Source: an archaeon (GTDB lineage Archaea > Hydrothermarchaeota > Hydrothermarchaeia > Hydrothermarchaeales > BMS3B). From it: DNA of 34,332 bases. Numbering within the stretch: the stretch's first letter is position 1; each line of letters begins with the position of its first letter. Below the pieces are notes generated by a model. That model did not search any database. It was not told the origin of the DNA and saw nothing but the letters and a program-made list of their open reading frames with translations. This document shows, piece by piece, positions 2,038 through 15,634 of the stretch. The translations under genes and the position numbers were made by a program. Location: NCBI GenBank assembly GCA_026989875.1, contig JALSIP010000009.1, positions 1 through 34,332 of the forward strand. Reading direction: 5' to 3'.

Positions 2038-2368
2038 TATGTAGAATTTCTGATGCGGAGATATATATAAATTTTTTGAGCAAAAAGGTACAAAAACAAT
2101 TTGAAAATATCGGCCTTATTTTAATCTGAATTGTCCAGAAAGATTGCAAAACGTTAAGTAGTATAGTTTAAGGAATAAATCCCTCCTATTGGACCTATAC
2201 CCAAACCTGTAAACCTGTATAAACCATATCCCCACGCCTTCAGTATGGCGCCATGATAGCCTGAGCCACTCAACATAACTTTCATGCTGTAAAATTATTC
2301 CTGAAAATAAAGCATAAGTACCACTCACACCCAGATTTCTGTGGGGATGATTGATGCAGGGGGTGCGC
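2038..2368. other. intergenic region at the boundary between AT-rich island and respiratory cluster
   Basis: Apart from the TATA box at 2062-2071 I see no gene here. Composition changes from AT-rich to GC-rich between about 2150 and 2350. There is a tandem 8-bp repeat AAACCTGT at 2203-2218 followed by TATAAACCATAT, which could hold a promoter reading right towards the Bat-like gene, but it is far from that start. No integrase, tRNA or attachment site is visible at the boundary. Confidence 0.4.
2062..2071 (-). promoter_or_regulatory. TATA box of the TIR-like gene
   Basis: The minus strand reads TTTATATATA about 30 bases upstream of the ATG at 2037. This spacing puts the predicted transcription start at or within a few bases of the start codon, and no Shine-Dalgarno sequence is visible, so the mRNA is probably leaderless or nearly so. 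Confidence 0.6.
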
Positions 2369-3019
2369 ATGGACGATAACGGAGAGTTTCTGCGGGTTCT
2401 GCTGAGCATAGAATCTGAAGGCTGCGTCATCCACAGGCTTGCTGCCAGGCATCCCTGGGTTGAATTCAGGGTGGCAGAGAGGCACGTTCTCCCTGGCGGC
2501 GGAATGCTTGCAGGCATGGTTGTGCGGAGCGGTGAGGCTGTGCGGGAGTTTCTCGGTGAGCTTGCTGCCTGTGATGAGGTCAGGTTTCTTCAGCCTGTTT
2601 ACATTGCTGGCGGGTATCTCAGGCTCAGGCTGGAATTCAAGTGCGATTCCTGCGTGGTATGCAGAATAGCTGAGATGCTGCGCATCCCTCCAGAAGAAAT
2701 CTCGTGCAGCAATGGCAGAGTCGCAGCGGCGTTTATACTGAAGAACGGCGAAGAGCTGCGCACCATGGTGGCGCACCTGCGGGAGATGAGAGCAAACTTC
2801 AGGGTGCTTGAAGTCAGACGCGGATGCTTTAGCCCCCGGGAAGTGCAGCTCACCGATAGGCAGCTTGAGATTCTCAGGTATGCATACCGTGCGGGATACT
2901 TTGACCGTGACAGGAGAGTCAACCTGCAGCACATCGCCAGGCACTTCGGTCTGAGCCCTGCCACCATCGGCGTGCACATGAGGAGCGCCATCAAAAAGAT
3001 ACTTAAAAGGGTGATATAA
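2369..3019 (+). CDS. Bat-type (HTH_10) transcriptional regulator
   Basis: The last 55 or so residues of this 216-residue protein, LTDRQLEILRYAYRAGYFD followed by LQHIARHFGLSPATIGVHM, form the helix-turn-helix typical of bacterio-opsin activator (Bat/HTH_10, PF04967) proteins of archaea. The N-terminal 160 residues resemble the ligand or redox-sensing half found in short family members and contain a C-x2-C-x2-C cluster (CDSCVVC). I place the start at ATG 2369, six bases after CAGGGGG, rather than the in-frame TTG 2351 or ATG 2354. The gene ends nine bases before the heme O synthase gene, so the two are likely co-transcribed. Family members include oxygen- and light-responsive activators. Control of the oxidase cluster is inferred from position, and redox sensing through the Cys residues is a guess. 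Confidence 0.82.
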   Translation: MDDNGEFLRVLLSIESEGCVIHRLAARHPWVEFRVAERHVLPGGGMLAGMVVRSGEAVREFLGELAACDEVRFLQPVYIAGGYLRLRLEFKCDSCVVCRIAEMLRIPPEEISCSNGRVAAAFILKNGEELRTMVAHLREMRANFRVLEVRRGCFSPREVQLTDRQLEILRYAYRAGYFDRDRRVNLQHIARHFGLSPATIGVHMRSAIKKILKRVI

Positions 3020-3028
3020 GGTGAGGAC

Positions 3029-3883
3029 ATGAGAGAGTACCTGGGGATGTTCAAGCTCCGCATAGTTGCCCTGCTCGTGTTCGTCGCTATGGTGGCTGCA
3101 GCGGTTGGCTCGGGGGGCAGCCTCCAGGTTGAGCGGCTGCTACTGCTTTTTGCAGCAGGTGCTCTTGCATCAATGGGAGCAAGCGTGCTGAACCACTATT
3201 TTGACCGGGACATAGACGCGCTTGTCCCCAGAACCAGCAACAGACCACTTCCCTCAGGCAGGATTAAGCCCAGCACCGCATGCTGGCTCGGTGTTTTGCT
3301 GGTGGGTACCTCTCTGCTCCTGTCATCACGCCTGAACTACCTCACCACCATGTACATACTTGCTGGAGCGCTGGTTTACGTTCTGGTTTATACTGTGTGG
3401 CTCAAAAGGCGCAGCGCCCTGAACATAGTCATAGGGGGTCTCGCCGGTAGCTGTGCCGTACTTGCTGGATATGCGGCAATCCGTGGCGACACCACCCTGC
3501 TCGCCCTGCTGCTTGCCCTTCTGATATTCCTGTGGACTCCGCCCCACTTCTGGGCATTTGCCATAGCCAAGAGCTCTGACTACACCAGAGCTGGAGTGCC
3601 CATGCTGCCGGTGAAGTACGGGAATGACAGAGCAGCAAAGCTGATAGTCATGCACACCGTGCTGCTGGTTCAGGCGTCCCTGCTGCTCTACGCCTTCGGC
3701 TACTTCGGCGGATTGTATCTGGTGGTGGCGGTTGTTCTGGGGGTTTTGCTGCTGGCTTTCAATCTGAAGCTGCTCGCCACCAGAAGCACAGGCTGGGCAT
3801 GGAGAAGCTACAGGTTCTCAGGTATATATCTTATAGTCCTGTTCACAGCCATACTGCTGGATGCACTATTTAAACAGGCTTAA
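3029..3883 (+). CDS. ctaB: heme O synthase (protoheme IX farnesyltransferase)
   Basis: This 284-residue membrane protein belongs to the UbiA prenyltransferase superfamily and has the CtaB/CyoE signatures: the first Asp-rich motif NHYFDRDIDALVPRTSNRPL (55-74), TPPHFWAFAI in the middle, and DYTRAGVPMLPVKYG. Eight to nine hydrophobic segments are visible. It adds a farnesyl chain to heme b to give heme O, the high-spin heme (or heme A precursor) of heme-copper oxidases. No ctaA (heme A synthase) is nearby, so the final heme could be O-type or an As/Os-type heme. The start has a good GGTGAGG ribosome site. Linkage to the subunit genes from 3929 onward supports a dedicated role in maturing that enzyme. 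Confidence 0.95.
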   Translation: MREYLGMFKLRIVALLVFVAMVAAAVGSGGSLQVERLLLLFAAGALASMGASVLNHYFDRDIDALVPRTSNRPLPSGRIKPSTACWLGVLLVGTSLLLSSRLNYLTTMYILAGALVYVLVYTVWLKRRSALNIVIGGLAGSCAVLAGYAAIRGDTTLLALLLALLIFLWTPPHFWAFAIAKSSDYTRAGVPMLPVKYGNDRAAKLIVMHTVLLVQASLLLYAFGYFGGLYLVVAVVLGVLLLAFNLKLLATRSTGWAWRSYRFSGIYLIVLFTAILLDALFKQA

Positions 3884-3928
3884 TATTTTAATACAACCTT
3901 TAATTTCTATGTGTACATCCGTTAAATC

Positions 3929-4078
3929 ATGGTGGCTGATGGGGGTAATGAGGAAATTCCTTTCATGCAGAGGTTTCTGGACAACATGTGGTTGCTGCTG
4001 ATTCTGAGTTTTGCCATACTTGCGGTGTCCTACGTGGGATGGGGAATTCTGGAAGCACTTAACGTTCCCAGCAGGTGA
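3929..4078 (+). CDS. small single-span membrane protein of the oxidase cluster (49 aa)
   Basis: This 49-codon frame has a polar N-terminus (MVADGGNEEIPFMQRFLDN), one hydrophobic segment (about 20-40, MWLLLILSFAILAVSYVGWG) and a short tail. It ends 13 bases before the subunit II ATG, and GAAGGAGGTG between the two serves that next gene. Position and topology fit a small accessory subunit or assembly peptide. I find no named family. An AT-rich stretch at 3884-3910 upstream may contain a weak promoter. In-frame ATG codons downstream (for example the one encoding M13) could also start translation. Confidence 0.65.
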   Translation: MVADGGNEEIPFMQRFLDNMWLLLILSFAILAVSYVGWGILEALNVPSR

Positions 4079-4091
4079 AGGAGGTGCCGGG

Positions 4092-4622
4092 ATGAGTGTC
4101 GCTCCCCCTCAGGGTGTGTGGTGGAAGGAGAGGACGCCCAGGGAGGAGAAGCTCTGGGTTGCCATAGCCTTGGTGTGGGCGATTGTGATGTTTGTGATGA
4201 TGCCCCTGTGGCACATCTACGGCAAGCAGAACCCCTCCACAGAGACCTACAGGGTTTCACCGGAAGAATATGTGAGACTCACCCAGGAGTTCATAGAGAA
4301 GTATAAGGTGGGTGAGGAGAATGGCGTTCCCGTTGTGGAGCCGCCGCCGGGGAGCGATGTGTACCTGCTGGGCAGGCAGTTCAGCTGGGAGCCCATAATC
4401 AGGCTCAAAAAGGGTGAAACTTATCGCTTACACCTATCCTCGGCTGATGTGCTCCACGGCTTCTCGGTCTATCCAATGAACATCAACTTCATGGTGATAC
4501 CCGGCTACGACTACGTGCTCACCGTGACGCCAACCCAGGCGGGAGTTTACAGCGTGGTGTGCAACGAGTACTGCGGGTTGGGGCACCAGGTAATGGTTGG
4601 AAAGATTATAGTGGTGGAGTGA
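4092..4622 (+). CDS. coxB: heme-copper oxidase subunit II with CuA centre
   Basis: The 176-residue protein has one N-terminal membrane anchor (about 20-42, LWVAIALVWAIVMFVMMPLW) and a C-terminal cupredoxin domain. The CuA ligands are all visible: His in DVLHGFSV, then VCNEYCGLGHQVM giving Cys-x3-Cys-x3-His-x2-Met. A single anchor and a short cupredoxin domain are typical of B-type (ba3) enzymes. It should take electrons from a soluble donor on the outer face and pass them to subunit I. I chose ATG 4092, preceded by GGAGGTGCCGGG, over an upstream in-frame opening at 4011 that overlaps the small membrane gene. A functional CuA argues that the donor is a cytochrome c or cupredoxin, but none is encoded here. 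Confidence 0.93.
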   Translation: MSVAPPQGVWWKERTPREEKLWVAIALVWAIVMFVMMPLWHIYGKQNPSTETYRVSPEEYVRLTQEFIEKYKVGEENGVPVVEPPPGSDVYLLGRQFSWEPIIRLKKGETYRLHLSSADVLHGFSVYPMNINFMVIPGYDYVLTVTPTQAGVYSVVCNEYCGLGHQVMVGKIIVVE

Positions 4623-4631
4623 GGTGACGAT

Positions 4632-6146
4632 ATGAGCGATGATTTCAGGACCTGCCCTGTGACGGGATTTAAGGTGCATCTGCCTGCTGAGAGGCTCATC
4701 AAGGTCAACGCAGTTACGGCGGTGGTGGCGCTTCTTGTGGGGGCGATTATGGCGCTCTTAGTGGCGCTCACCAGGTGGGAGACCGTGCACCTGCTGCGCC
4801 CCTTAGACTACTACAAGTTCTTAACCCTGCACGGCTGGAACATGCTGGGATTCTGGATAATATTCTTTGAGGTGGCAGTGCTCTACTTCGCCGGCGCTAT
4901 AATGCTCAACTCCCGTCTTGCCTCGCCGAAGCTCGGCTGGCTGGCGTATGCGCTCATGCTGGTGGGTGCTGCTGGCACTAACATTACTGTTCTCATGAAT
5001 CCAGCGAAGAACGCGATAATGTTCACCTCCTACGTGCCTCTGAAGGCAACCCCCGGCTACTACCTCTCGGTAATCCTCTTCGCCGTTGGCGCACTGCTTG
5101 CGGTTTTCAACTTCCTGGCGACGCTGTACATTGCCAGGAAGGAGAGGACCTACCGGGGCTCTCTTCCCTTAGTGGTCTTCGGCGCCCTGACGGCGGCAAT
5201 AATAGCGGTGAGCACCCTGCTCTTCGGCGCCGCTGCGCTGGTTCCCACCCTCTTCTGGTCCATGGGCATATCCCCCACCTGGGATGCACTAACCTACAGG
5301 ATAGTCTTCTGGGCTTTCGGGCACCCCTCGCAGCAGATAAACGTGGCGGCAATGATAGCAATCTGGTACCTGCTCGCCTACCTCACCGTAGGGGGCACGA
5401 CGATAAGCGAGAAGTTCTCCCGTCTTGCGTTTCTCTTCTACATCCTCTTCATCAACATCGCCTCGGCGCACCACCTGCTGGTTGACCCTGGCGTAAGCTC
5501 CGCCTGGAAGATATGGAACACCAGCTATGCCATGTACTTAGCGGTGCTTGCGAGCATGATGCACGCTTTTGCTGTGCCTGCGGCGATAGAGGTGGCGCAG
5601 CGCAGGAAGGGCTTCAACCGCGGCTTATTTGAATGGCTGTGGAAGGCACCCTGGAAGAACCCCTCCTTCTCGGCGCTCATCCTCTCAATAGTAATCTTTG
5701 GCTTCCTGGGCGGGATAAGCGGCGTGATTCAGGGCACGGAGCAGCTCAACATAAGGTTCCACAACACCCTTGCGGTGCCCGGCCACTTCCACGGCACAGT
5801 CGCAGGTGGCACAACTCTGGCGTTCATGGGCATAACCTACTACGTGCTTCCGCTGATATTCAGGCGCGAGGTTGTGGGCAAGAGCCTGGCGGTGTACCAG
5901 CCCTGGATATTCGGCATAGGCATAGCTCTGGTCTCCATAGGCATGCAGGGCGCTGGTCTATACGGTGTGCCCAGGAGGCATGCGGACATAACCAGCTTCG
6001 GCGGCTCCGTCTTTGCCTTTGACTACGACCCCACCGCCTACTTCTGGCTTTCCCTGCTGGGCATTGGCGGCATCCTCGCCTTCACCGGAGCGCTGCTATT
6101 CGTTCTAATAGCTGTTGCCACGCTGATTAAGGGAAGGAGGCTCTGA
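4632..6146 (+). CDS. coxA: heme-copper oxidase/NO reductase superfamily subunit I, lacking the cross-linked Tyr
   Basis: A 504-residue protein with about 13 membrane spans. Heme and copper ligands are present: His67 (LTLHGWN) and His387 for the low-spin heme, His385 (PGHFHG) for the high-spin heme, His231 (FGHP) and His280-His281 (SAHHLL) for CuB. In oxygen-reducing A and B types the residue four after the first CuB His is a Tyr covalently linked to it (H-P-x-V-Y). Here the sequence is H-P-S-Q-Q, so residue 235 is Gln. Loss of this Tyr is a hallmark of NO reductases and of NOR families proposed to derive from B-type oxidases. It could therefore reduce NO rather than O2; this is inference. GAGGTGA precedes the ATG, and the stop lies two bases before the subunit IIa-like gene. 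Confidence 0.9.
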   Translation: MSDDFRTCPVTGFKVHLPAERLIKVNAVTAVVALLVGAIMALLVALTRWETVHLLRPLDYYKFLTLHGWNMLGFWIIFFEVAVLYFAGAIMLNSRLASPKLGWLAYALMLVGAAGTNITVLMNPAKNAIMFTSYVPLKATPGYYLSVILFAVGALLAVFNFLATLYIARKERTYRGSLPLVVFGALTAAIIAVSTLLFGAAALVPTLFWSMGISPTWDALTYRIVFWAFGHPSQQINVAAMIAIWYLLAYLTVGGTTISEKFSRLAFLFYILFINIASAHHLLVDPGVSSAWKIWNTSYAMYLAVLASMMHAFAVPAAIEVAQRRKGFNRGLFEWLWKAPWKNPSFSALILSIVIFGFLGGISGVIQGTEQLNIRFHNTLAVPGHFHGTVAGGTTLAFMGITYYVLPLIFRREVVGKSLAVYQPWIFGIGIALVSIGMQGAGLYGVPRRHADITSFGGSVFAFDYDPTAYFWLSLLGIGGILAFTGALLFVLIAVATLIKGRRL

Positions 6147-6148
6147 AG

Positions 6149-6268
6149 ATGGAGGAAGAGGTAAGACCGAAGGGCACTCTCGCGCTGGTGCTGCTCTTCT
6201 TCGTGGTGTTTGTGCTCTTCTACGTGGTCAACTGGATATGGCTCAGCGGTGTATGGGTGCTGAGGTAG
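6149..6268 (+). CDS. ba3-type oxidase subunit IIa-like peptide (39 aa)
   Basis: A 39-codon gene starting MEEEVRPKGTLALVLL with a single hydrophobic helix. It closely resembles in length and pattern the 34-residue subunit IIa of Thermus thermophilus ba3 oxidase, which also begins with M-E-E, a Lys-Pro/Pro-Lys-Gly turn and one membrane helix and replaces part of the second helix missing from subunit II. The ATG is two bases after the subunit I stop, and AAGGGAAGGAGG lies before it. It is too short for most gene callers. Its presence supports the view that the neighbouring subunit I is of B type in architecture, even though the active site is altered. Confidence 0.8.
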   Translation: MEEEVRPKGTLALVLLFFVVFVLFYVVNWIWLSGVWVLR

Positions 6269-6281
6269 CGGAGGAGCAGAG

Positions 6282-7541
6282 TTGAACAGCGCCCACCTCC
6301 ACCGCTGGCTCCTCTTTTCTGTTTTTTCACTTGTTTTTGCCGGCGTCTTTGCCTTCTTCGCCGCCATGGCGCGCACCCCTGCGGTCAGGCTCTTCCCTGT
6401 GGAGGAGCTCTTCAGGGTAGCGCTGGTGGTGCACGTTATCTTCGCCGTTGTCATCTGGTTTCTGGGCTTCAAGGCAGTGCTCTGGTGCTACTGCGCTGCC
6501 GGAAGGGGCTCAGCTGTCAGCCGCCTGTGGAGCTATGGACTGTATGCCGCCATCGCCGGTATGCTCATGGTGGCAGCCTCACCGCTCTTCAGCGCCAGGC
6601 CTCTGCTCATAGACTACATCCCTCTGCTGCTGCACCCCCTCTACTTCGGAGGGCTCATTCTCATTGCCCTGGGAATGAGCGCCGTTGCCCTGGCATACAT
6701 AAAGCACTCTACGGGTGTGAAGCTTGACCTGCCCTCCTACACGATGCTGCTTGCAGCCTTCGTGCTCTTCGTGACCTTCCTCAGCTTCTTCTCCTCCGCC
6801 TTTATCAACGGCACCGACTACCGCGCCCTCGTCTGGGGTCCGGGGCACATCTTCCAGGTAGCGAGCACCTTAGCGATGGCTGCTGCCTGGTTTATCCTGC
6901 TGCGGGAAACCCTGGGCAGGGACCTGGACTCCCCGCCGGTGAGGAGGCTTCTCCTCCTCTACCTTGCGGTGGCAATGCTCATGCCGGGCATCTACTTCTT
7001 CCCCCGCTCTGAGCAGTTCTGGCTGTTCACCCGGGCGATGATGTACGGGATAGCTCTTCCGAGCGTCTTCGTGGGGCTTCTGGTGCTCAGAGCCCTGGCG
7101 GAGCAGCCATCGCTGGAGCTGCGCAACCCTGAGGTGGCATCCTTAGTGTATTCCTCAGTTCTCTTCGGCACCGGCGGTGCCATGGGTTTCTTTGCCACGA
7201 GTGCTGACCTGCGCGTTCCGGCTCACTACCACGGTGTGCTCGGCGCGGTAACCCTCGCCTTTATGGGTGCCACCTACCTGCTCCTGAGGAAGCTGGACAT
7301 ACCCTACAGCCGCCGTGCTGCCATGCTCCAGCCCCACCTCTACGGAGCGGGTCTGCTGCTTATAATCTCAGGCCTCTTCTGGGCTGGGATGCAGAGCGCC
7401 CCTCGCAAGACGGTTGAGTATGCGGACTCTGCCACCAGACTTGCCATGAACCTCATGGGACTCGGCTCTGTTGTGGCGGTGGTGGGCGGCGCCGCCTTCG
7501 TGGGCGTTGTGCTCCTGGCGCTGCTCAGGGCTGGCAGGTGA
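6282..7541 (+). CDS. second, divergent heme-copper subunit I homologue lacking the CuB His pair
   Basis: The 419-residue protein has about 12 membrane spans. It aligns with subunit I at several points: His51 (VVHVIF) and His317 suit a low-spin heme, His315 (PAHYHG) a high-spin heme, and WGPGHIFQVAS (185-195) matches WAFGHPSQQIN around the first CuB His (His189). About 49 residues later, where the His-His CuB pair should be, the sequence reads YFFPRSEQFW with no His. CuB is therefore probably absent or replaced. The start is TTG 6282 behind GGAGG. The last 17 bases overlap the convergent ferredoxin gene. It may be a second subunit in one complex, an electron-transfer paralogue or a separate reductase; the sequence does not decide. 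Confidence 0.8.
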   Translation: MNSAHLHRWLLFSVFSLVFAGVFAFFAAMARTPAVRLFPVEELFRVALVVHVIFAVVIWFLGFKAVLWCYCAAGRGSAVSRLWSYGLYAAIAGMLMVAASPLFSARPLLIDYIPLLLHPLYFGGLILIALGMSAVALAYIKHSTGVKLDLPSYTMLLAAFVLFVTFLSFFSSAFINGTDYRALVWGPGHIFQVASTLAMAAAWFILLRETLGRDLDSPPVRRLLLLYLAVAMLMPGIYFFPRSEQFWLFTRAMMYGIALPSVFVGLLVLRALAEQPSLELRNPEVASLVYSSVLFGTGGAMGFFATSADLRVPAHYHGVLGAVTLAFMGATYLLLRKLDIPYSRRAAMLQPHLYGAGLLLIISGLFWAGMQSAPRKTVEYADSATRLAMNLMGLGSVVAVVGGAAFVGVVLLALLRAGR

Positions 7542-7878
7542 AGTTTATCGCATCCATGGGGCAGGCGTCTATGCAGGCTCTGCAGGGCTTCTCCGCATCG
7601 GGGTTTCTAACCCTCTCGCACCTGTTCATGTCCACCTCTACTGCAACACCCTCCCCTATGCGCATCACCATCCCCTCACCGCTTTCCCCCTTACCCCCTC
7701 CCACACCGCCCCTGAGGGCGTTCACGGGGCATGCAACCACGCAGTTGCCGCAGCCGTTGCACAGCTCTTCCAGCACCACCATCTTTATCCTCCTCTCCCC
7801 CCGCAGCACGGGCAGCAGCTTCAGGAGGAGCAGCAGGAAGAAGGCGGACAGCAGCAGGGCTACCGGCGTGGCATCCAT
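7525..7878 (-). CDS. membrane-anchored ferredoxin-type protein, two [4Fe-4S] clusters
   Basis: The 117-residue protein starts with one hydrophobic helix (about 5-25, PVALLLSAFFLLLLLKLLPVL) followed by a basic stretch, so the rest should be cytoplasmic. Two cluster motifs follow: CNGCGNCVVACP, and a second set with the first Cys in MNRCERV and then CRACIDACP near the C-terminus. A Gly-rich loop separates them. The ATG is immediately after the stop of the cytochrome b fusion (no gap), so the two genes form one operon and probably one complex. Its 3' end overlaps the end of the second subunit I gene by 17 bases. Confidence 0.85.
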   Translation of the reverse strand: MDATPVALLLSAFFLLLLLKLLPVLRGERRIKMVVLEELCNGCGNCVVACPVNALRGGVGGGKGESGEGMVMRIGEGVAVEVDMNRCERVRNPDAEKPCRACIDACPMDAINFTCQP

Positions 7879-9771
7879 TTACCCATCACCCAGGTGGAAC
7901 CTGCCCTTCTCAAATTTCAGGATGACCACCCTGCTCCTTTCAAACCTCACCCTCTCCACCAGTCTGTACCTGAATTCACCCTCCGCAGAGTCCCTTATTC
8001 TGACCTCTAAGGTGTGCTCTCCCGGCTCAACTTCTATTCTCTCGTAGGCATAGCTGGGCCCATCCCTCCACAGCCCCGAGGGCTGATAGCTCTTCCTGAG
8101 CACAGTTCTGCCATCTATCGCTAACACCACCTCCACTGGGGAGCGCTCCCTGGGGCAGGGAGTCAGGTTGCCAGCTCTGAGCTCCTCCACAGTTGGCTCC
8201 CTGCAGGGCACCAGCCGCTCCCCCGGGTGGCTCATGGTGAAGAGGAGCATCGCTTTATCTGCCTGCATCAGGGAGTAGGCGGGGGATGTGGAGAAGTAGC
8301 TCAGAGGTAGCGTGAAGAGGAGCAGCAGCATAAGTATGAGGTGCGGTGCTGGCTTCTCCCTGTCACACTTTCCTTCCTCCAGAGCGGATATGAGTTTCTT
8401 TTCTTCACCCGGCATTAGCCAGCACAACCTCACCCGACCCGCTTCAGGATGCTTCAGCACGGGAGCTCGTCTTCCAGATAGCCTGTCCTCTGTCCATAGG
8501 TTACCGAAGCGGTACCTGCAGTCTCCGTGTTTGCATCCCGCGATGACGAGCTTATTCACACCAGCATCAAGGGCATCCGCAACAGCCAAGGGATGAAGCA
8601 TCCCAATGCAGCGCAGGCTGAGCACCTTCACATTACTCTGCATGAGTCTGTCTGCTGCCTTACCACCCAGGCAGTGCCTGCAGATGACCACCAGAGTCTT
8701 ATCCCTCTCAGCCAGCGATTTTACCTCTTTCCTGAGCAATTCAAGCTCCGTATCTCCAAACTCTACAGCGTTGAAACTGCAGGAGCCGACGCATATCCCG
8801 CAGCCTGCACATCTGCTCCCTGATACGCTGGCGACCTTCTTTTCGCCATCTTTAAGCATACTTATAGCACCGTACGGACAGTCAGCATAACACAGCTCAC
8901 ATCCGGTGCAGGTTTCTCTACGAATTCTGGCGCTGAGCCATTCTTTCTGAAGTAGCCTGGGCACCGCAAGCAGGAATGCGGTGATGGCTATCAGCAGGAG
9001 CCAGCTCAGGCGTGGATGGCTCTGCATCAGCGGCAGGGGTAGCATGTAATACCAGTCCACAGGCACTTTGACCGGGATATCGTATGGCGTGGCTGGTGGA
9101 GCGCTGATTGCTGGCTTGAGCAGCGATAGGGTCAGCAGCACCGCCAGAAGCAGCACTGCAACACGCTCCGGTGGAAGCAACCTGACGCCGGATAGTCTGG
9201 AGAAATGAAGCAGCAGAAGTACTGATGAGAACAGGGGGAGTGCAAGATGAGTGAAAACCACCGCAAAGAAAAGCAGACTGGTCAGACTTTCTTCACCGGC
9301 AACCGACATGGCGAGGGGTTTTGGAAATACCGGGAGCTCATCCAGAAATTCAGTTATGCCAAGCGCCACAAGCTGCGCACGCTGATCCCACACCATCCAG
9401 TAGCCTGTGAGACCCTCTATCAGTACAGCACCAAATAAAAGAACCCCCGAGACCCACACCAGCCACCTGCTCTGCAGCAGCCTCCTGGTTATGAGGGTTC
9501 TGATACCGTGAAGAATAAGAACAATTATGAGGGCATCTGCAGAATACCTGTGAATACTGCGCATAATCCCGGCTATACGGTCTTCAGTTATATTATTTAC
9601 AGAGATGTATGCGTTCTGCGCGTTTATACTGTAAAAAGGCAGCACGTAAATGCCGCTAATTGCGGTTAACAGCAGCAGGAATATGGCAATCTGCCCCAGA
9701 TGCATAAAGGGGTTGTATCTGGATGTGAAGGCACGGTTTACCAGCAGCTCCATTCTGGAAAACAGGGTCAT
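7879..9771 (-). CDS. cytochrome b - 2[4Fe-4S] ferredoxin - MvhD-like fusion membrane protein
   Basis: Domains in order over 630 residues: a cytochrome b part (1-270) with two His pairs, His74/His88 and His175/His189, each spaced as in bc-complex cytochrome b, and PVDWYY (237-242) in the place of the PEWY quinol-site motif; a ferredoxin with C-x2-C-x2-C-x3-C at 288-298 and 321-331; an MvhD/FlpD-type [2Fe-2S] domain (about 360-455; Cys364, 367, 388, 413, 418; AGCKHGDCRYRFGN); one more membrane span (about 477-493); and a C-terminal beta-rich domain, probably outside. MvhD normally passes electrons between hydrogenase or dehydrogenase and heterodisulfide reductase. Such a fusion could connect a cytoplasmic flavin/FeS partner to a quinone pool. 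A Rieske protein is not encoded. The start ATG 9771 is supported by the N-terminal amphipathic helix; ATG 9753 is also possible. Confidence 0.85.
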   Translation of the reverse strand: MTLFSRMELLVNRAFTSRYNPFMHLGQIAIFLLLLTAISGIYVLPFYSINAQNAYISVNNITEDRIAGIMRSIHRYSADALIIVLILHGIRTLITRRLLQSRWLVWVSGVLLFGAVLIEGLTGYWMVWDQRAQLVALGITEFLDELPVFPKPLAMSVAGEESLTSLLFFAVVFTHLALPLFSSVLLLLHFSRLSGVRLLPPERVAVLLLAVLLTLSLLKPAISAPPATPYDIPVKVPVDWYYMLPLPLMQSHPRLSWLLLIAITAFLLAVPRLLQKEWLSARIRRETCTGCELCYADCPYGAISMLKDGEKKVASVSGSRCAGCGICVGSCSFNAVEFGDTELELLRKEVKSLAERDKTLVVICRHCLGGKAADRLMQSNVKVLSLRCIGMLHPLAVADALDAGVNKLVIAGCKHGDCRYRFGNLWTEDRLSGRRAPVLKHPEAGRVRLCWLMPGEEKKLISALEEGKCDREKPAPHLILMLLLLFTLPLSYFSTSPAYSLMQADKAMLLFTMSHPGERLVPCREPTVEELRAGNLTPCPRERSPVEVVLAIDGRTVLRKSYQPSGLWRDGPSYAYERIEVEPGEHTLEVRIRDSAEGEFRYRLVERVRFERSRVVILKFEKGRFHLGDG

Positions 9772-10069: not shown

Positions 10070-10108
10070 AGTCCCGGAGGCAGTACGGGAAGGTTGGAGG
10101 TGAAAGCT

Positions 10109-12604
10109 GTGGTAGTGTTGAGACGGATTTCGGAGTCCGTTAAGGACTACGACACCATCAGGTACACCACCTGCGACAACATGTGCGAGAGCGGCTGTGG
10201 AATGAAGGTGTACCTGAAGGATGGCAGAATAGTTGACATCTGGGGTGACGATGAGCACCCGCAGAACTACGGCTCCCTTTGCCCGAAGGGAACCGCAAAC
10301 TACCAGCATGTGTACAACCCCCTCAGGGCAAAATACCCCGTGATCAGGGAGGACAACGTTAACGGGAAGTTCAGGCGTGTAACCTGGGATGATGCGCTTG
10401 ACTTTGTTGCCGAGCGCCTGAAGTACATACGTGAGAAGTGGGGTGCCCACACCGTAGCCTGCCACCGCACAGGAAGGAGCAGCTACGGTAACAAGCTGGG
10501 TGGCTCCAGGTTCCTTGCCATGTACGGCACGCCCAACATCTACGGCCAGGGACCGCTCTGCTGCGAGTCCCCCGGAGCGAGGGGTCAGTACGTATTCGGT
10601 GCCAAGGAGTTTCTCCGCTTGATGAACCCCTGTCAGGATGCGATGAACAGCGACACCGTGTTCATCGCAGGTGCAAATGCAGCGGCGCTGGAAGTAATCA
10701 CCATGAAGTGGTTCATAGAGGCGCAGGAGCGCAATGGCGCCAAGATGATAGTCATAGACCCGCGCTTCAATGCCACGATGGCAAAGGCAGACCTGGCGCT
10801 GCGCCTCAGACCAACCACCGACGCCTACCTGGCGAACTCCTTGGCGCACGTGCTCATCTACGAGATAGATGGCATAGACAAGGAGTTCATAGCCAAGTGG
10901 ACGGTTGGCTTTGACAAGTATGCAGAGCTTGTCAAGGACTACACCCCTGAGAAGGCTGAGAACATCACCTGGGTTCCGGCTGAGGACATACGCAAGGCAG
11001 CCGAGTGGATAGCCTATCCCAGGAGGACGCACTTCACGGGCTGCTTAGGTACCGCGCAGCAGTACAATGCCGGCAACGGCAATGCCGCCTACCAGATACT
11101 GGTGGCGATCACAGGAAACGTGGGTGTTAAGGGTGGTGGCTGGAACTGGCTGCACAACTGCAGACCTGTGCTGAGCGCCGGCAAGGACCTGAAGGAGTAC
11201 GTGGCTAAGATAAAGGAGCCGCAGCTCTCTGACAAGATCATACCCTGGGGCGACACCTCAAGCGCCTGCACCATAAATCCTGGATACACCGGCAAGCCCT
11301 ACCCGGTGAAGGGGCTGATATGGAACGGCAACCACATAGTGCAGTGGCCCAACAACAACAAGGTGAGGGAGTACATGAAGAACCTGTACTGCGGTGTGCA
11401 CCTGAGCTTCCATCCCAACGAGACCATGAGCTGGATGCATGCAGCATTTCCGATAACCAGCTTCTTTGAGCACGAGGGCGTGGTGCACCACGGCAACAAC
11501 CGCCACGTGCAGTGGCACAACCAGATTATTGAGAGGCAGTGGGAGTGCAGGGCAGACATAGACTTCTGGGCAGGTCTGGCGAAGCGCTTTGAGTTCGCCG
11601 AGGCTTACTATGCGCCCGACGGTAAGAGCTGGTGGGCGAAGAAGGACGTCTTCGGCAACCCGCTGCCCGAGGACCCGAAGTACCCCGGCACCACCCACGA
11701 GATTGATGAGCGTGTCTGCCAGAACTGGTTCCACTCCCAGGAGCCCTTTGTGGCTGGCATAACCGCCGACCTCATGGACCCGGAGATGTCCCCCAAGGGC
11801 GGTGTGATGTGGCCTGCTGAAACCAAGGACGAGGCTATGATGTACTCCGACCCCGAGGCGACCATAAGAGGTGCCCAGTGGATAATGTACAAGGAGGGCG
11901 TCAACTACCCCGGCACCGACAAGCGCTTCCCCACACCCAGCGGCAAGGTGGAGATATACAGCAGGGCGCTGGAGCAGATAGGCTGGTATCCCATGCCCAT
12001 ACACATAGAGCCCAACAACGCACCAGTTGCGAGACCAGACCTGTGGGAGAAGTACCCGCTCATCCTGTGCACGGGTCGCTTGGTTGCGCACTTCCACGAG
12101 ATGGGTCACTGGTGGCCCTGGATGGTTGAGCTGGAGCCCCACAGATTCATCAACATCCACACCGACTTAGCCAAGGAGCTGGGCATACGCGACGGCGACA
12201 CCGTGGTCTGCGAGAACGACTACGGCAAGGTCATAGGTCCCGCCTGGGTCAATGAGATGGTTGACGTAGCCGAGGTCTGGGGACCAGAGGGCTTTGACAA
12301 GTACCAGCCCTTCTATCCCTACAGCAACATTAACGAGCTCGTGGATGACACCGTGAAGGACCCCTTCTACACGCAGGCGCAGTACAAGTGCAACCTCGTG
12401 CGTGTGTATCGCCTGGGCGATGACCCGGATAAGGCTGTGGAGAAGACCAAGGAGTTCTTAGCTAAGCACAAGCGCACACCCAAGGACTACCTGGACCCGG
12501 AGAAGGAGCCGAGCGTCAACCTGGGTACCTACACCAGACTCACCCAGGAGGGCAGCGGCATCTACTACGTAGGGGTGCCGCGTGAGAAGTGGGAGACCAA
12601 GTGA
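10109..12604 (+). CDS. molybdopterin oxidoreductase catalytic subunit (DMSO reductase superfamily)
   Basis: The 831-residue protein binds one [4Fe-4S] cluster near the N-terminus (Cys22, 26, 30 and 58: TCDNMCESGC then SLCPKG) and the bis-molybdopterin-guanine-dinucleotide cofactor (IDPRFNATMAKAD; the C-terminal PSGKVEIYS and LILCTGR region). A Cys pair in GPLCCESPGARG lies where many family members have the molybdenum ligand, which would place it nearer polysulfide/thiosulfate-reductase-like enzymes than Ser-ligated DMSO reductases. The substrate cannot be named. There is no Tat signal and no membrane partner, so it is probably cytoplasmic. I chose GTG 10109, five bases after GGAGGTGA, though the frame opens at TTG 10094. 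The two ferredoxin subunits and the TorD chaperone follow in the same operon. Confidence 0.88.
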   Translation: MVVLRRISESVKDYDTIRYTTCDNMCESGCGMKVYLKDGRIVDIWGDDEHPQNYGSLCPKGTANYQHVYNPLRAKYPVIREDNVNGKFRRVTWDDALDFVAERLKYIREKWGAHTVACHRTGRSSYGNKLGGSRFLAMYGTPNIYGQGPLCCESPGARGQYVFGAKEFLRLMNPCQDAMNSDTVFIAGANAAALEVITMKWFIEAQERNGAKMIVIDPRFNATMAKADLALRLRPTTDAYLANSLAHVLIYEIDGIDKEFIAKWTVGFDKYAELVKDYTPEKAENITWVPAEDIRKAAEWIAYPRRTHFTGCLGTAQQYNAGNGNAAYQILVAITGNVGVKGGGWNWLHNCRPVLSAGKDLKEYVAKIKEPQLSDKIIPWGDTSSACTINPGYTGKPYPVKGLIWNGNHIVQWPNNNKVREYMKNLYCGVHLSFHPNETMSWMHAAFPITSFFEHEGVVHHGNNRHVQWHNQIIERQWECRADIDFWAGLAKRFEFAEAYYAPDGKSWWAKKDVFGNPLPEDPKYPGTTHEIDERVCQNWFHSQEPFVAGITADLMDPEMSPKGGVMWPAETKDEAMMYSDPEATIRGAQWIMYKEGVNYPGTDKRFPTPSGKVEIYSRALEQIGWYPMPIHIEPNNAPVARPDLWEKYPLILCTGRLVAHFHEMGHWWPWMVELEPHRFINIHTDLAKELGIRDGDTVVCENDYGKVIGPAWVNEMVDVAEVWGPEGFDKYQPFYPYSNINELVDDTVKDPFYTQAQYKCNLVRVYRLGDDPDKAVEKTKEFLAKHKRTPKDYLDPEKEPSVNLGTYTRLTQEGSGIYYVGVPREKWETK

Positions 12605-12614
12605 GGTGGTGGAG

Positions 12615-13400
12615 ATGGATGAGGTCTTCTCAGACAAGGGCTACTGCCTCAACCTGGACCAGGAGACAGCACGCTCTGCCATGGAGCGCATAGAGAAGAT
12701 CGGGCTCAGAGAGGCGCAGGCTGCCAGTGTCTGGGGTATACCCCCAGACCACATTGCCATGTTCGTTGACCTGAAGCGCTGCATAGGCTGCTTCGCCTGC
12801 GAGACTGCCTGCAAGCTTGAGCATGACGACCCCATGGGTCCACGAAGGATGCGCGTGATTCAGGTGGGACCGAAGAAGGTGGGCAGGCACACCAAGGCGA
12901 TGTACATACCCATGAACTGCTTCATGTGCGGTCACGCCGCCTGCGTTGAGGCATGCCCCACCGGGGCGATGACCAAGCGCTCCAAGGACGGCATAGTGTT
13001 TGTGGACAGCGAGAAGTGCATAGGCTGCAAGCGCTGCATGCAGGCGTGCCCCTTCGGCGCACCACAGTACGACTCAAGGACGGGCAAGGTTATAAAGTGC
13101 GACTACTGCATGCACCGCATTGACCAGGGGCTGCAGCCTGCCTGCGTGACCAAGTGCTCCACTCACGCCCTCTACATCGGCAACCCTGCTGACATAATGA
13201 CCTACTTCCGTGAGAAAGACGCCATACGTCTGGCAAGAGTTTACTTTGACGACAGGGCAGACACCGACCTGCTGACCTCACCTGCCTACGCATTCCCGGA
13301 GCGGGCGCTCTTCATACCCAGAGTGCGCCTGAAGCCTGGCAAGCTTCCGGAGCGTGTCACAGAGGTTACAAAGCCCGTCTACAAGAAGGAGCAGCAGTAG
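12615..13400 (+). CDS. four-cluster [4Fe-4S] electron-transfer subunit 1 of the molybdoenzyme
   Basis: A 261-residue DmsB/PsrB/NrfC-type protein with sixteen ligand Cys in four sets: 56-59-62-66, 102-105-110-114, 135-138-141-145 and 162-165-177-181. An N-terminal extension of about 50 residues with no Cys-rich motif precedes the first cluster. It should carry electrons to or from the catalytic subunit encoded ten bases upstream. The ATG at 12615 follows GAGGTGGTGGAG. Residues about 121-157 are encoded by a 112-nt segment that is identical to the paralogue at 13693. No signal peptide is present, as for the catalytic subunit. With two such subunits in one operon the enzyme may form either a long FeS chain or two alternative complexes. 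Confidence 0.9.
   Translation: MDEVFSDKGYCLNLDQETARSAMERIEKIGLREAQAASVWGIPPDHIAMFVDLKRCIGCFACETACKLEHDDPMGPRRMRVIQVGPKKVGRHTKAMYIPMNCFMCGHAACVEACPTGAMTKRSKDGIVFVDSEKCIGCKRCMQACPFGAPQYDSRTGKVIKCDYCMHRIDQGLQPACVTKCSTHALYIGNPADIMTYFREKDAIRLARVYFDDRADTDLLTSPAYAFPERALFIPRVRLKPGKLPERVTEVTKPVYKKEQQ
12975..13086 (+). repeat. 112-nt identical patch, copy 1
   Basis: This segment is base-for-base identical to 13981-14092 in the paralogous ferredoxin gene, although flanking parts of the two genes have diverged in both sequence and synonymous positions. It spans the third cluster motif (CIGCKRCMQACP). Confidence 0.9.
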
Positions 13401-13414
13401 GGGCTCATCCCCCT
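13399..13414 (+). other. short stem-loop after the first ferredoxin gene
   Basis: AGGGG-CTCAT-CCCCT forms a five-base-pair stem right after the stop codon, followed by a T-rich stretch (CCCTTTTGATTTTTC) and then the AGGAGG of the next gene. It could reduce read-through or protect the upstream mRNA end; the operon clearly continues after it. Confidence 0.35.
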
Positions 13415-13443
13415 ACCCTTTTGATTTTTCAGGAGGATAAGAG

Positions 13444-13677
13444 GTGGCAAAGCCCAAGGGTTACCGGGGAGAGCTTGATGATGCTCTCAGGCAGGCGCTT
13501 GAGGGCGTGGTGCCTGAAAATCTTAAAAAGAGAGTCATGAAGAATCCTGACTGGATTTATGTGCTCACGATTATCAGGGAGATGAGAGCCCGTGAGCTCG
13601 GCAGCTACTACTTCGGCAGCGATGTTATGGTTTCTCCATGCTGCCCCATGCCAGAGCGTCTGGGCTATGAGGATTAA
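13444..13677 (+). CDS. small conserved-position protein of unknown function in the molybdoenzyme operon (77 aa)
   Basis: The frame starts at GTG 13444, seven bases after AGGAGG, and encodes a soluble, partly helical protein (LDDALRQALEGVVPENLKKR; DWIYVLTIIREMRARELGS) that ends with a Cys pair (VSPCCPMPERLGYED). I do not recognise the family. It lies between two ferredoxin subunit genes and has its own strong ribosome site, so it is very likely translated. Possible roles are a small structural subunit or an assembly factor for a metal centre (because of the C-C near the C-terminus), but neither is shown by sequence. Confidence 0.75.
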   Translation: MAKPKGYRGELDDALRQALEGVVPENLKKRVMKNPDWIYVLTIIREMRARELGSYYFGSDVMVSPCCPMPERLGYED

Positions 13678-13692
13678 CAGGAGGTCCTGGAA

Positions 13693-14505
13693 ATGCAGGT
13701 TCAGATATCTGAGCCCTTCAGGGAGGATGTGGTGCTGAAGGAGCCAAGGGACGGGGATGTGGTCATGCTCATTGACCTGAAGCGCTGCATAGGCTGCTTC
13801 TCCTGCGAAACCTCCTGCAAGCTGGAGCACGAGCTCGGCATGGGTCCCAGGCTGATAAGGGTGATTCAGGTGGGACCCAGGGAGGTGAGGGGCAGGATCA
13901 GAACCCTCTACATACCCATGCCCTGCTTCCACTGCTCACCAGCCGCCTGCGTTGAGGCATGCCCCACGGGAGCGATGCAGAAGCGCTCCAAGGACGGCAT
14001 AGTGTTTGTGGACAGCGAGAAGTGCATAGGCTGCAAGCGCTGCATGCAGGCGTGCCCCTTCGGCGCACCACAGTACGACTCAAGGACGGGCAGGGTTGTG
14101 AAGTGCAACTTCTGCATGCAGCGGGTTGACTACCGCAGAACCTACACCCGTGAGGAGCTTGAGAAGATATACCGGCACGTGCCCCAGAAGAGAATCTACC
14201 TGCCTGTTCATGACGAGGTGGGCAACATAAAGCGGGACAGCAAGGGCAGGCTGGTGGATGAGAAGGGTGAGCCGCTCTCCGGAAGAAAGCTCGCCGAGGC
14301 TGGTGAGATGCCAGAAAGCCTGAGCTACTCGGGGCTGTGGAGCGCCTGCGCCACCAAGTGCTCCACCGAGGCTATGACCTTCGGCTACTACAGGGACGTC
14401 AAAAAGCTCATAGAGCAGAAGGCAGAGAACAGGCAGATACACCGGGTGGGCAGCGTCTTCTATGCCCTGCCCCCTGAGGACTTTCCGCTTCCGCGCTCCA
14501 AGTAG
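13693..14505 (+). CDS. four-cluster [4Fe-4S] electron-transfer subunit 2 of the molybdoenzyme
   Basis: A 270-residue paralogue of the 12615 gene product. Ligand Cys sets are 32-35-38-42, 78-81-86-90, 111-114-117-121 and 138-141-219-223. The loop between the second and third Cys of the last set is 77 residues long (11 in the paralogue) and contains a charged hairpin-like stretch (HDEVGNIKRDSKGRLVDEKG). The N-terminal extension of the paralogue is missing. The ATG at 13693 follows CAGGAGGTCC. The long insert may shape a docking surface for a different partner. With no NrfD/PsrC-type membrane gene near, the electron donor or acceptor is probably soluble, such as ferredoxin, or the cytochrome b-ferredoxin-MvhD membrane protein encoded divergently upstream. 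Confidence 0.9.
   Translation: MQVQISEPFREDVVLKEPRDGDVVMLIDLKRCIGCFSCETSCKLEHELGMGPRLIRVIQVGPREVRGRIRTLYIPMPCFHCSPAACVEACPTGAMQKRSKDGIVFVDSEKCIGCKRCMQACPFGAPQYDSRTGRVVKCNFCMQRVDYRRTYTREELEKIYRHVPQKRIYLPVHDEVGNIKRDSKGRLVDEKGEPLSGRKLAEAGEMPESLSYSGLWSACATKCSTEAMTFGYYRDVKKLIEQKAENRQIHRVGSVFYALPPEDFPLPRSK
13981..14092 (+). repeat. 112-nt identical patch, copy 2
   Basis: Identical to 12975-13086. A second shorter shared block (GCCTGCGTTGAGGCATGCCC) lies just upstream of both copies. The pattern fits recent gene conversion between the two ferredoxin genes better than simple conservation. Confidence 0.9.
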
Positions 14506-14517
14506 CGCGGACCTACA

Positions 14518-14540
14518 GTTTTATTTTCAATTGTTTCCTT
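14518..14540 (+). terminator. T-rich stretch, possible terminator and/or TATA element before the chaperone gene
   Basis: GTTTTATTTTCAATTGTTTCC follows the second ferredoxin stop. Archaeal termination often uses such T-runs. The GTTTTATTTT part could equally serve as a TATA box for the chaperone-nurA-herA genes, predicting a start near 14548 and a short leader before TTG 14567. Confidence 0.35.
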
Positions 14541-14566
14541 AAAGCATCTGAGTAGAGGTGTTCAGC

Positions 14567-15634
14567 TTGCCGGAGTCTTCGGTGTTTGAGGAGAACAGGT
14601 ATGTTAAGTGGTTCATAGACCCTGAGCTGGCAAAGGACTGGAAGAACCTGCTAAAGAAGTACCCCTATCTCTTCTGGATACAGTCAATGAACGTGCGTGA
14701 CAGGAAGCAGTGGGCGGTGCTGGTGAGGAAGTACTCACCCGAGCTGCGCCCGCCGGTGAAGGTGCACGGAGCTGAGAGCTATGCCGAGCTCAGCGTTGCC
14801 AGAAGAGATGCCTGGTTCCAGCTTTTCAGATGCCTCACCGAGGTGTCCCTGAACCTTGTCAGGGAGTTTCAGAGCGGTGAGTTCGCGGATAAGCTGAGAT
14901 GCAGCTTCGGCAGGCTGCTTGGAGAGAGGGAGGTGGAGACGTACCTGGAGCAGCTTGAGCGTGTTAGGCTGGAATTTGAACACCTCCGTGCCGAGAAGCT
15001 GCAGCGGGAGCTTGAGGCAGAGCGCTTCACCATATTTGACGATGACCTGATGCCGTACCTGTCAGCCCACGAGTCGGTGTACAGGAGTGAGAAGCAGCTC
15101 ATGGGCGACCTGACAGCGCAGGTTAAGGAGCTTTACCGGCGTGCCGGCTATGTGGTTGACAAGTCCAGAGGGAACCTGCCCCCGGATGAGGCAAAGCTTG
15201 AGGTGGAGTTTGCATATCGCCTGATAGAGGATGAGATTCAGGCGTGGAGAAGGGGGGAGAATGAGAGAGCCATGGAGCTTCTTCAGCTTCAGAGGGAGTT
15301 CATCCAGCAGCACGCTGCGCTCTGGCTTCCCTACATGTTCGCAGACCTGGCAAGCAGGGAGTTCAGAATAGGGATAGCCAGGAAGTACCACGGGGATGTG
15401 CGGGATGAGGAGCTCTACGCCCGTGAGGGTGCGGTGGTGGAGATGGACTTTCTTCAGGTTATAGCGGGGCTGGGCAGGATGCTGGTGGAGCAGGAGTACC
15501 TGCAGGTTGAGGAGATGCTGCAGGCTGCAGGCAAGATTTCTGCAGGGGAGCTTGCAGCCGCCTTCAGCGGGGTTGTGCCGCTCCCGACTGCGGGCGAAAA
15601 CACCTACCTGCTGAGGGCAGGGCAAAATGCTTGA
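14567..15634 (+). CDS. TorD/DmsD-family chaperone for the molybdoenzyme
   Basis: The C-terminal two-thirds of this 355-residue, all-helical protein has the TorD (redox enzyme maturation protein) pattern: MPYLSAHESVYRSEKQLMGD, PPDEAKLEVEFAYRLIEDE and HAALWLPYMFADLA. Such chaperones bind the apo-catalytic subunit and hold it for cofactor insertion. At the N-terminus it has an extra segment of about 150 residues (FIDPELAKDWKNLLKKYP...), making it longer than the usual 200 residues. The start is probably TTG 14567, six bases after GAGGTG; an in-frame GTG at 14558 is the alternative. Its stop overlaps the nurA start by eight bases (ATGCTTGA), an unexpected coupling of a redox chaperone to DNA-repair genes. 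Confidence 0.82.
   Translation: MPESSVFEENRYVKWFIDPELAKDWKNLLKKYPYLFWIQSMNVRDRKQWAVLVRKYSPELRPPVKVHGAESYAELSVARRDAWFQLFRCLTEVSLNLVREFQSGEFADKLRCSFGRLLGEREVETYLEQLERVRLEFEHLRAEKLQRELEAERFTIFDDDLMPYLSAHESVYRSEKQLMGDLTAQVKELYRRAGYVVDKSRGNLPPDEAKLEVEFAYRLIEDEIQAWRRGENERAMELLQLQREFIQQHAALWLPYMFADLASREFRIGIARKYHGDVRDEELYAREGAVVEMDFLQVIAGLGRMLVEQEYLQVEEMLQAAGKISAGELAAAFSGVVPLPTAGENTYLLRAGQNA

Follow-up and report, generated by a model that had tools for sequence, protein, structure and literature searches.

A CuB-less paralogue of heme-copper oxidoreductase subunit I in Hydrothermarchaeota and several bacterial phyla, a candidate heme-handling maturation factor

A gene encoded in a Hydrothermarchaeota genome raises the question of what function can be served by a homologue of subunit I of the heme-copper oxidoreductases (HCO) that keeps its heme ligands and has no copper site. 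The protein, for which the label PAR is used in the current report, is encoded at positions 6282-7541 of the window, the whole stretch of 34,332 nucleotides considered in the analysis, and follows a first subunit I (4632-6146). How subunit I receives its hemes is still unsettled in HCO biogenesis, particularly in organisms that have no Surf1.

Fold of PAR and the residues kept and lost

The PAR gene lies on the forward strand, starts with TTG at 6282, ends with a stop codon at 7539-7541 and encodes 419 residues with 12 trans-membrane helices. Residues 9-390 match the Pfam family COX1 (PF00115) with 53.6 bits (cut-off 34.8). This is the sole Pfam match of the protein and no SURF1 homology is found. 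BLASTP comparison with the first subunit I gives an E-value of 8e-20, and the coordinates, the Pfam match and this similarity bear out the first-pass annotation of the reading frame as a subunit I homologue. The AlphaFold2 model, predicted from a family alignment of 30 sequences, has 12 helices (pLDDT 93, pTM 0.93) and matches the fold of A-, B- and C-type subunits I and of NO reductase (NOR) over about 400 residues (VIA Z 33-35). PAR thus has both the 12-helix subunit I fold and the profile (PF00115) of the HCO superfamily. A sequence search of the PDB with PAR gave no match, the plasmid search for PAR found none, and no NCBIfam family covers PAR-type sequences.

Homologues were collected by a genome-wide motif scan and by profile searches. 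The first 41 loci were selected for one of two motifs, WGPGHxxQ or LRVPAHYH, and the motif used at each locus is therefore subject to ascertainment; the unbiased checks, namely the motif not used and those members recovered only through profile searches (L092-L103, L118, L119), agree with the pattern described below.

His51 (codon 6432-6434), at a low-spin heme ligand position, and His315 and His317 (7224-7232, in the motif PAHYH), at the high-spin and low-spin positions, correspond in the alignment to His67, His385 and His387, which bind heme in the first subunit I. His51 is present in 51 of 51 aligned PAR sequences and the other two in 52 of 52. The three-histidine ligand set for two hemes is therefore complete and invariant, as the proposal that these residues suit two hemes had anticipated. 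The heme-propionate pair is Arg375-Lys376 (7404-7409; each residue 52/52), where HCO subunits I have Arg-Arg. Trp185 and Trp203 are also invariant among the 52 sequences.

The helix-VI CuB-type histidine is retained as His189, followed by the invariant Gln192 (6846-6857; each 52/52). The segment GPGH189-I-F-Q192 aligns with GH231-P-S-Q234-Q235 of the first subunit I, with the shared Gln at +3 that had been pointed out earlier, and this Gln is common to PAR and all 29 eNOR-like subunits compared. At +4, PAR mostly has Phe, Val or Ile and not Tyr or the Gln of eNOR. The His-His pair is found at the CuB columns of 29/29 eNOR-like, 6/6 ba3 and 11/11 aa3 subunits and in 0/52 PAR. The spacing of 49 residues between His231 and His280, applied from His189 onward, leads to Tyr238-Phe239 within YFFPRSEQFW, and the alignment register places the pair at Ile237/Tyr238 (Ile237-Tyr238-Phe239, 6990-6998); neither register has His, Cys or Asp. 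The loss of the pair noted in the first-pass annotation is thus upheld throughout the family, with His189, a retention that the annotation had not described, as the sole survivor of the three-histidine CuB/FeB site. A single His or Cys occurs near the CuB region of some members (SVEH in Burkholderiales), never a pair, and since no further His is conserved family-wide the alignment gives no indication that other histidines fill the CuB position. PAR has further lost Lys293, Glu80 and Glu320, the propionate-loop residues His377-Asn378 together with a portion of that loop, and a number of polar residues that eNOR-like subunits conserve.

Two occupants had been suggested for such a protein. That the protein holds two hemes and no copper is the reading that follows most naturally, given invariant heme ligands, an invariant propionate Arg and a CuB pair that is absent family-wide. 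Another metal held by Glu/Gln ligands is rejected, because the PAR alignment has no acidic residue near the former CuB site that is conserved family-wide; Glu244 is present in most PAR of Hydrothermarchaeota and Burkholderiales and absent in those of Aquificota, and Gln192 stands at +3, not +4.

Descent and distribution of the family

PAR sequences are monophyletic (ultrafast bootstrap 100; FastTree 0.97). Their sister is a subunit I of Anaerolineales with the His-His pair and the motif GHTLQY (92), and the eNOR-like clade comes next (100). This grouping is separate from ba3 and aa3 and is placed in the B-family, in a tree whose reference set is small and comprises no C-type and no cNOR or qNOR sequences. 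PAR is likely to have originated by a single duplication of an eNOR-like B-family subunit. It is an HCO by fold and descent, yet one without the defining binuclear centre. The Anaerolineales sequence itself (L036:4076-5737) keeps the CuB pair and combines Gln at +3 with Tyr at +4, and its active site may stand between those of oxygen reductases and eNOR.

Homologues have been identified in Archaea, Aquificota, Burkholderiales and other Betaproteobacteria, Nitrospirota, Chloroflexota, a deltaproteobacterial lineage and a Bdellovibrionales MAG, and the idea of a lineage-specific oddity is therefore rejected. Six Hydrothermarchaeota genomes encode full-length orthologues (52-95% identity), each adjoining an eNOR-like subunit I or its contig-end fragment. 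A divergent member from a Proteobacteria MAG (L062:9872-11224) has no cox or cta neighbours, and the Bdellovibrionales PAR (L063:2450-3768) runs across two overlapping reading frames, an apparent frameshift. A published HCO classifier drops sequences without six His ligands by rule (PMC3084760), and exclusion of this kind may explain why PAR-type sequences were overlooked. Our literature searches found no description of a CuB-less HCO homologue; work of 2024 on NOR diversity lay outside their coverage, so that a prior mention is possible.

Gene neighbourhood and co-occurrence

All genes between 2351 and 7541 of the window that are described here are on the forward strand. A gene for an HTH_10/DmsR-like protein (2351-3019), which may control the NO/O2 respiration cluster, lies directly upstream of ctaB, which encodes a CtaB/CyoE heme O synthase (3029-3883; TIGR01473, E-value 3.8e-78, above the cut-off). 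A subunit II with the CuA motif CNEYCGLGH (4095-4622; PF00116) precedes the first subunit I, which is of the B-family and eNOR-like. This partner of PAR has a complete CuB site (His231, His280, His281), and in its motif GHPSQQ the active-site Tyr is replaced by Gln235, as in 29 of 29 members of its clade, a feature not remarked upon in the first-pass annotation. Gln at this position is diagnostic of eNOR (PMC8756737, Table A4), a B-family NO reductase defined by that replacement (Hemp & Gennis 2008; PMC8756737). The 39-residue single-helix reading frame between the partner and PAR (6149-6268) resembles subunit IIa by size and position; IIa of the Aquifex aeolicus ba3 oxidase has 41 residues (PMC3128077).

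On the reverse strand follow a two-cluster 4Fe-4S ferredoxin-like membrane protein (7525-7878), found beside PAR also in L016-L019, and the adjoining cytochrome b/4Fe-4S/FlpD fusion (7879-9771). The fusion, a candidate electron donor module, recurs beside eNOR-like clusters and eNOR-PAR loci of Hydrothermarchaeota, Burkholderiales and Aquificota. Farther along, the forward strand carries a molybdopterin oxidoreductase operon (10094-15634) with a catalytic subunit, two Fe-S subunits and a TorD/NarJ-like chaperone.

Two related genomes (G007 and G009; L016:8826-10517, L017:10778-12448) have nirS, the gene of cytochrome cd1 nitrite reductase, placed between ctaB and subunit II. In the genome of the window nirS is on another contig (G000:C34) and not at 3883-4095, and it is found in all near-complete PAR-bearing Hydrothermarchaeota genomes. 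NO reduction by the locus of the partner subunit is therefore likely, judged from its eNOR-type Gln235 and, circumstantially, from the nirS linkage. An earlier paper on Ca. Hydrothermarchaeota states that NirS/K was not found, and sets cox genes aside as possible contamination (PMC6759336). From its genes, the present locus indicates that these archaea carry nirS and a putative eNOR-like NO reductase.

Across lineages PAR occurs in two arrangements. The first, subunit II-subunit I-PAR with ctaB or ctaA, SCO, nirS and the cytochrome b fusion nearby, is seen in Hydrothermarchaeota, Burkholderiales and some Aquificota. The second, ctaA-ctaB-PAR with or without DUF420, is seen in Aquificota, Nitrospirota and one deltaproteobacterium; DUF420/CtaM lies downstream of PAR in many loci. 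The distance from the ctaB stop to the PAR start is -4 to +4 nt in 16 of 16 measured ctaA-ctaB-PAR loci, and in the three loci of Burkholderiales type that were measured PAR either overlaps ctaA or directly adjoins it. PAR follows the heme-modifying genes so closely that its translation is probably coupled to theirs. These ties to ctaA/ctaB, eNOR and nirS had escaped the first-pass annotation. No dedicated subunit II accompanies PAR in the ctaA-ctaB loci, and in Hydrogenobacter it stands away from any cox genes. One genome (G080) has two PAR copies, one with ctaA-ctaB and the other within subunit II-subunit I-PAR-SCO-nirS; another (G097) has a subunit II-subunit I-SCO-nirS cluster without PAR, which is encoded in a ctaA-ctaB operon instead.

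The co-occurrence counts are not phylogenetically independent and no weight is therefore placed on Fisher p-values. Among 121 Aquificota genomes, all 46 that encode CtaA encode PAR as well, many with only other COX1-family proteins encode neither, and Surf1 is above the cut-off in none. PAR without CtaA is seen in two of them (G164, G172), each time near a contig end; a 27-residue fragment in G086 is left out of the count. Among 349 Burkholderiales genomes, scored with at most four candidates per genome so that absences are soft, PAR is found in 29, the eNOR-like subunit in 27 and both in 26, with one genome having eNOR without PAR. The partner of PAR thus differs by lineage, being eNOR in Burkholderiales, with ctaA-ctaB linkage in Aquificota. 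In Chloroflexota PAR occurs in 3 of 201 genomes, each time adjoining subunit I; most of their genomes with an eNOR-like subunit have no PAR, which is accordingly not generally required. CtaA is recognised in none of 23 Hydrothermarchaeota genomes (G000-G022), though several have ba3-type subunits I, so that in this phylum PAR is linked to CtaB and eNOR only; these archaea may depend on heme O/B, or may have a heme A synthase that escaped detection. A canonical subunit I accompanies PAR in all nine genomes examined for COX1, which answers the pairing question posed in the first-pass annotation, and two of these genomes (G061, G062) have no COX1-family members besides PAR and one canonical subunit.

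Role of PAR and comparison with known systems

PAR is proposed to be a dedicated maturation factor, a CuB-less diheme protein of HCO fold engaged in handling or inserting hemes as HCO enzymes are assembled, and this proposal is given an even chance of being correct. The wider statement, that a monophyletic HCO subfamily spread over several phyla, having lost copper and catalysis, serves as diheme maturation factor for its catalytic relatives and fills the place of Surf1 in bacteria and archaea that lack it, is put a shade below even; the diheme state of such a factor is possibly bis-His/bis-His. PAR would be a catalytically retired subunit I that still holds two membrane hemes, one between His51 and His317 and the second bound to His315; His189 would lie opposite His315 on that heme and, CuB being gone, possibly serve as sixth ligand. 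Heme O, replaced by heme A in organisms with CtaA, would pass from CtaB or CtaA to PAR, be kept in a pocket shaped like that of subunit I and then be transferred, or templated, into the true subunit I. The clients would be eNOR-like in Hydrothermarchaeota and Burkholderiales and aa3-type in Aquificota and Nitrospirota.

The HCO shape, the intact heme sites, the missing copper site and the fixed place beside ctaA/ctaB make PAR a direct candidate for heme insertion. The heme-holding parts are kept and the parts that reduce substrate and move protons are lost, which is counted in favour of a maturation role, as are the joint occurrence of PAR and CtaA in Surf1-less Aquificota, the distance of PAR from cox genes in Hydrogenobacter and its faster evolution relative to subunit I. 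Its relatives stand beside heme-modifying enzymes and working oxidases or NO reductases in several phyla, which suggests that PAR is probably an assembly helper and not an enzyme. The absence of an own subunit II, the tightness to ctaB/ctaA, the varied HCO partners and the duplication in G080 are facts that a maturation factor joins best. A factor for NO reductases only is rejected, ctaA-ctaB-PAR adjoining aa3 oxidases in Aquificota and related loci; one for heme A only is likewise rejected, Hydrothermarchaeota being without CtaA.

Against a maturation factor stand the missing CtaA of Hydrothermarchaeota, the Chloroflexota genomes with an eNOR-like subunit and no PAR, and the phylogenetic dependence of the co-occurrence counts; moreover, the gene clustering fits a structural subunit equally, and two strictly conserved heme sites also suit electron transfer. 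The main rival is an electron-transferring structural subunit, in which a CuB-less diheme PAR would form an I-I' heterodimer with eNOR or aa3 and receive electrons from quinol or the cytochrome b/FlpD complex. The placement of PAR directly after subunit I in Hydrothermarchaeota, Chloroflexota and some Aquificota, the co-occurrence with eNOR in Burkholderiales, the retention of every heme ligand and the adjoining fusion gene speak for this reading, which is nevertheless considered unlikely, at about one chance in a few. Aquificota have PAR next to ctaA-ctaB, in some loci distant from any cox gene (L049, L093-L103), the nitrite reductase-linked cluster of G097 does without it, and the purified A. 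aeolicus ba3 oxidase is described as consisting of I, II and IIa only (PMC3128077), an argument which assumes that the strain studied carries PAR as the Aquifex MAG (L040) does.

PAR could also be a partner of CtaA/CtaB themselves, presenting heme or donating electrons, for example for heme O hydroxylation. Its presence in every CtaA-bearing Aquificota genome and the near-zero distances to ctaB or ctaA would fit, but the PAR-bearing Hydrothermarchaeota lack CtaA. Heme A synthase is common in Burkholderiales, and about 320 of the sampled genomes of that order have no PAR; such a partnership is thus regarded as improbable. Still more doubtful is a reductase or NO-handling enzyme with a mononuclear heme site on His315 and His189/Gln192 as distal residues. 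These two residues, conserved in 52/52 and positioned over the former active site, and the link to NO metabolism through nirS are in its favour, but the ctaA-ctaB loci have no subunit II or other dedicated donor and the proton-path and propionate-loop residues are gone. A functionless, decaying duplicate, for which the lost CuB ligands might be cited, is rejected as next to impossible in view of the full-length reading frames, a residue set invariant across phyla and a dN/dS of 0.10-0.20, which marks faster evolution than that of the partner subunit I (0.04-0.06).

Several known systems are close to PAR, among them eNOR. Besides the near relationship in the tree and the neighbouring eNOR-like gene, both have Gln at +3 and Trp at +14 after the helix-VI His; PAR differs in having no CuB His pair, no Gln at +4 and no subunit II of its own, and is shorter (about 420 residues). 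The B-family ba3 oxygen reductases of Thermus (1ehk) and Aquifex (7deg) share the fold (Foldseek TM 0.76-0.84, about 17-21% identity) and the heme ligands, whereas PAR has no CuB site, cross-linked Tyr or His/Asn propionate loop. NorQ/NorD, the FeB insertion factors of cNOR, resemble PAR in its proposed role as accessory genes dedicated to NO reductase maturation (PMC9976466), but are AAA+/VWA proteins that insert non-heme iron. Surf1, a heme A-binding assembly factor with two trans-membrane helices and a periplasmic domain, is of unrelated fold, and the likeness lies in the proposed role only, in which heme A/O would be held beside CtaA and handed to subunit I. Surf1 paralogues are also dedicated to different oxidases, and the paired Surf1c and Surf1q of Paracoccus (PMC9145763) may be compared with the two PAR copies of G080.
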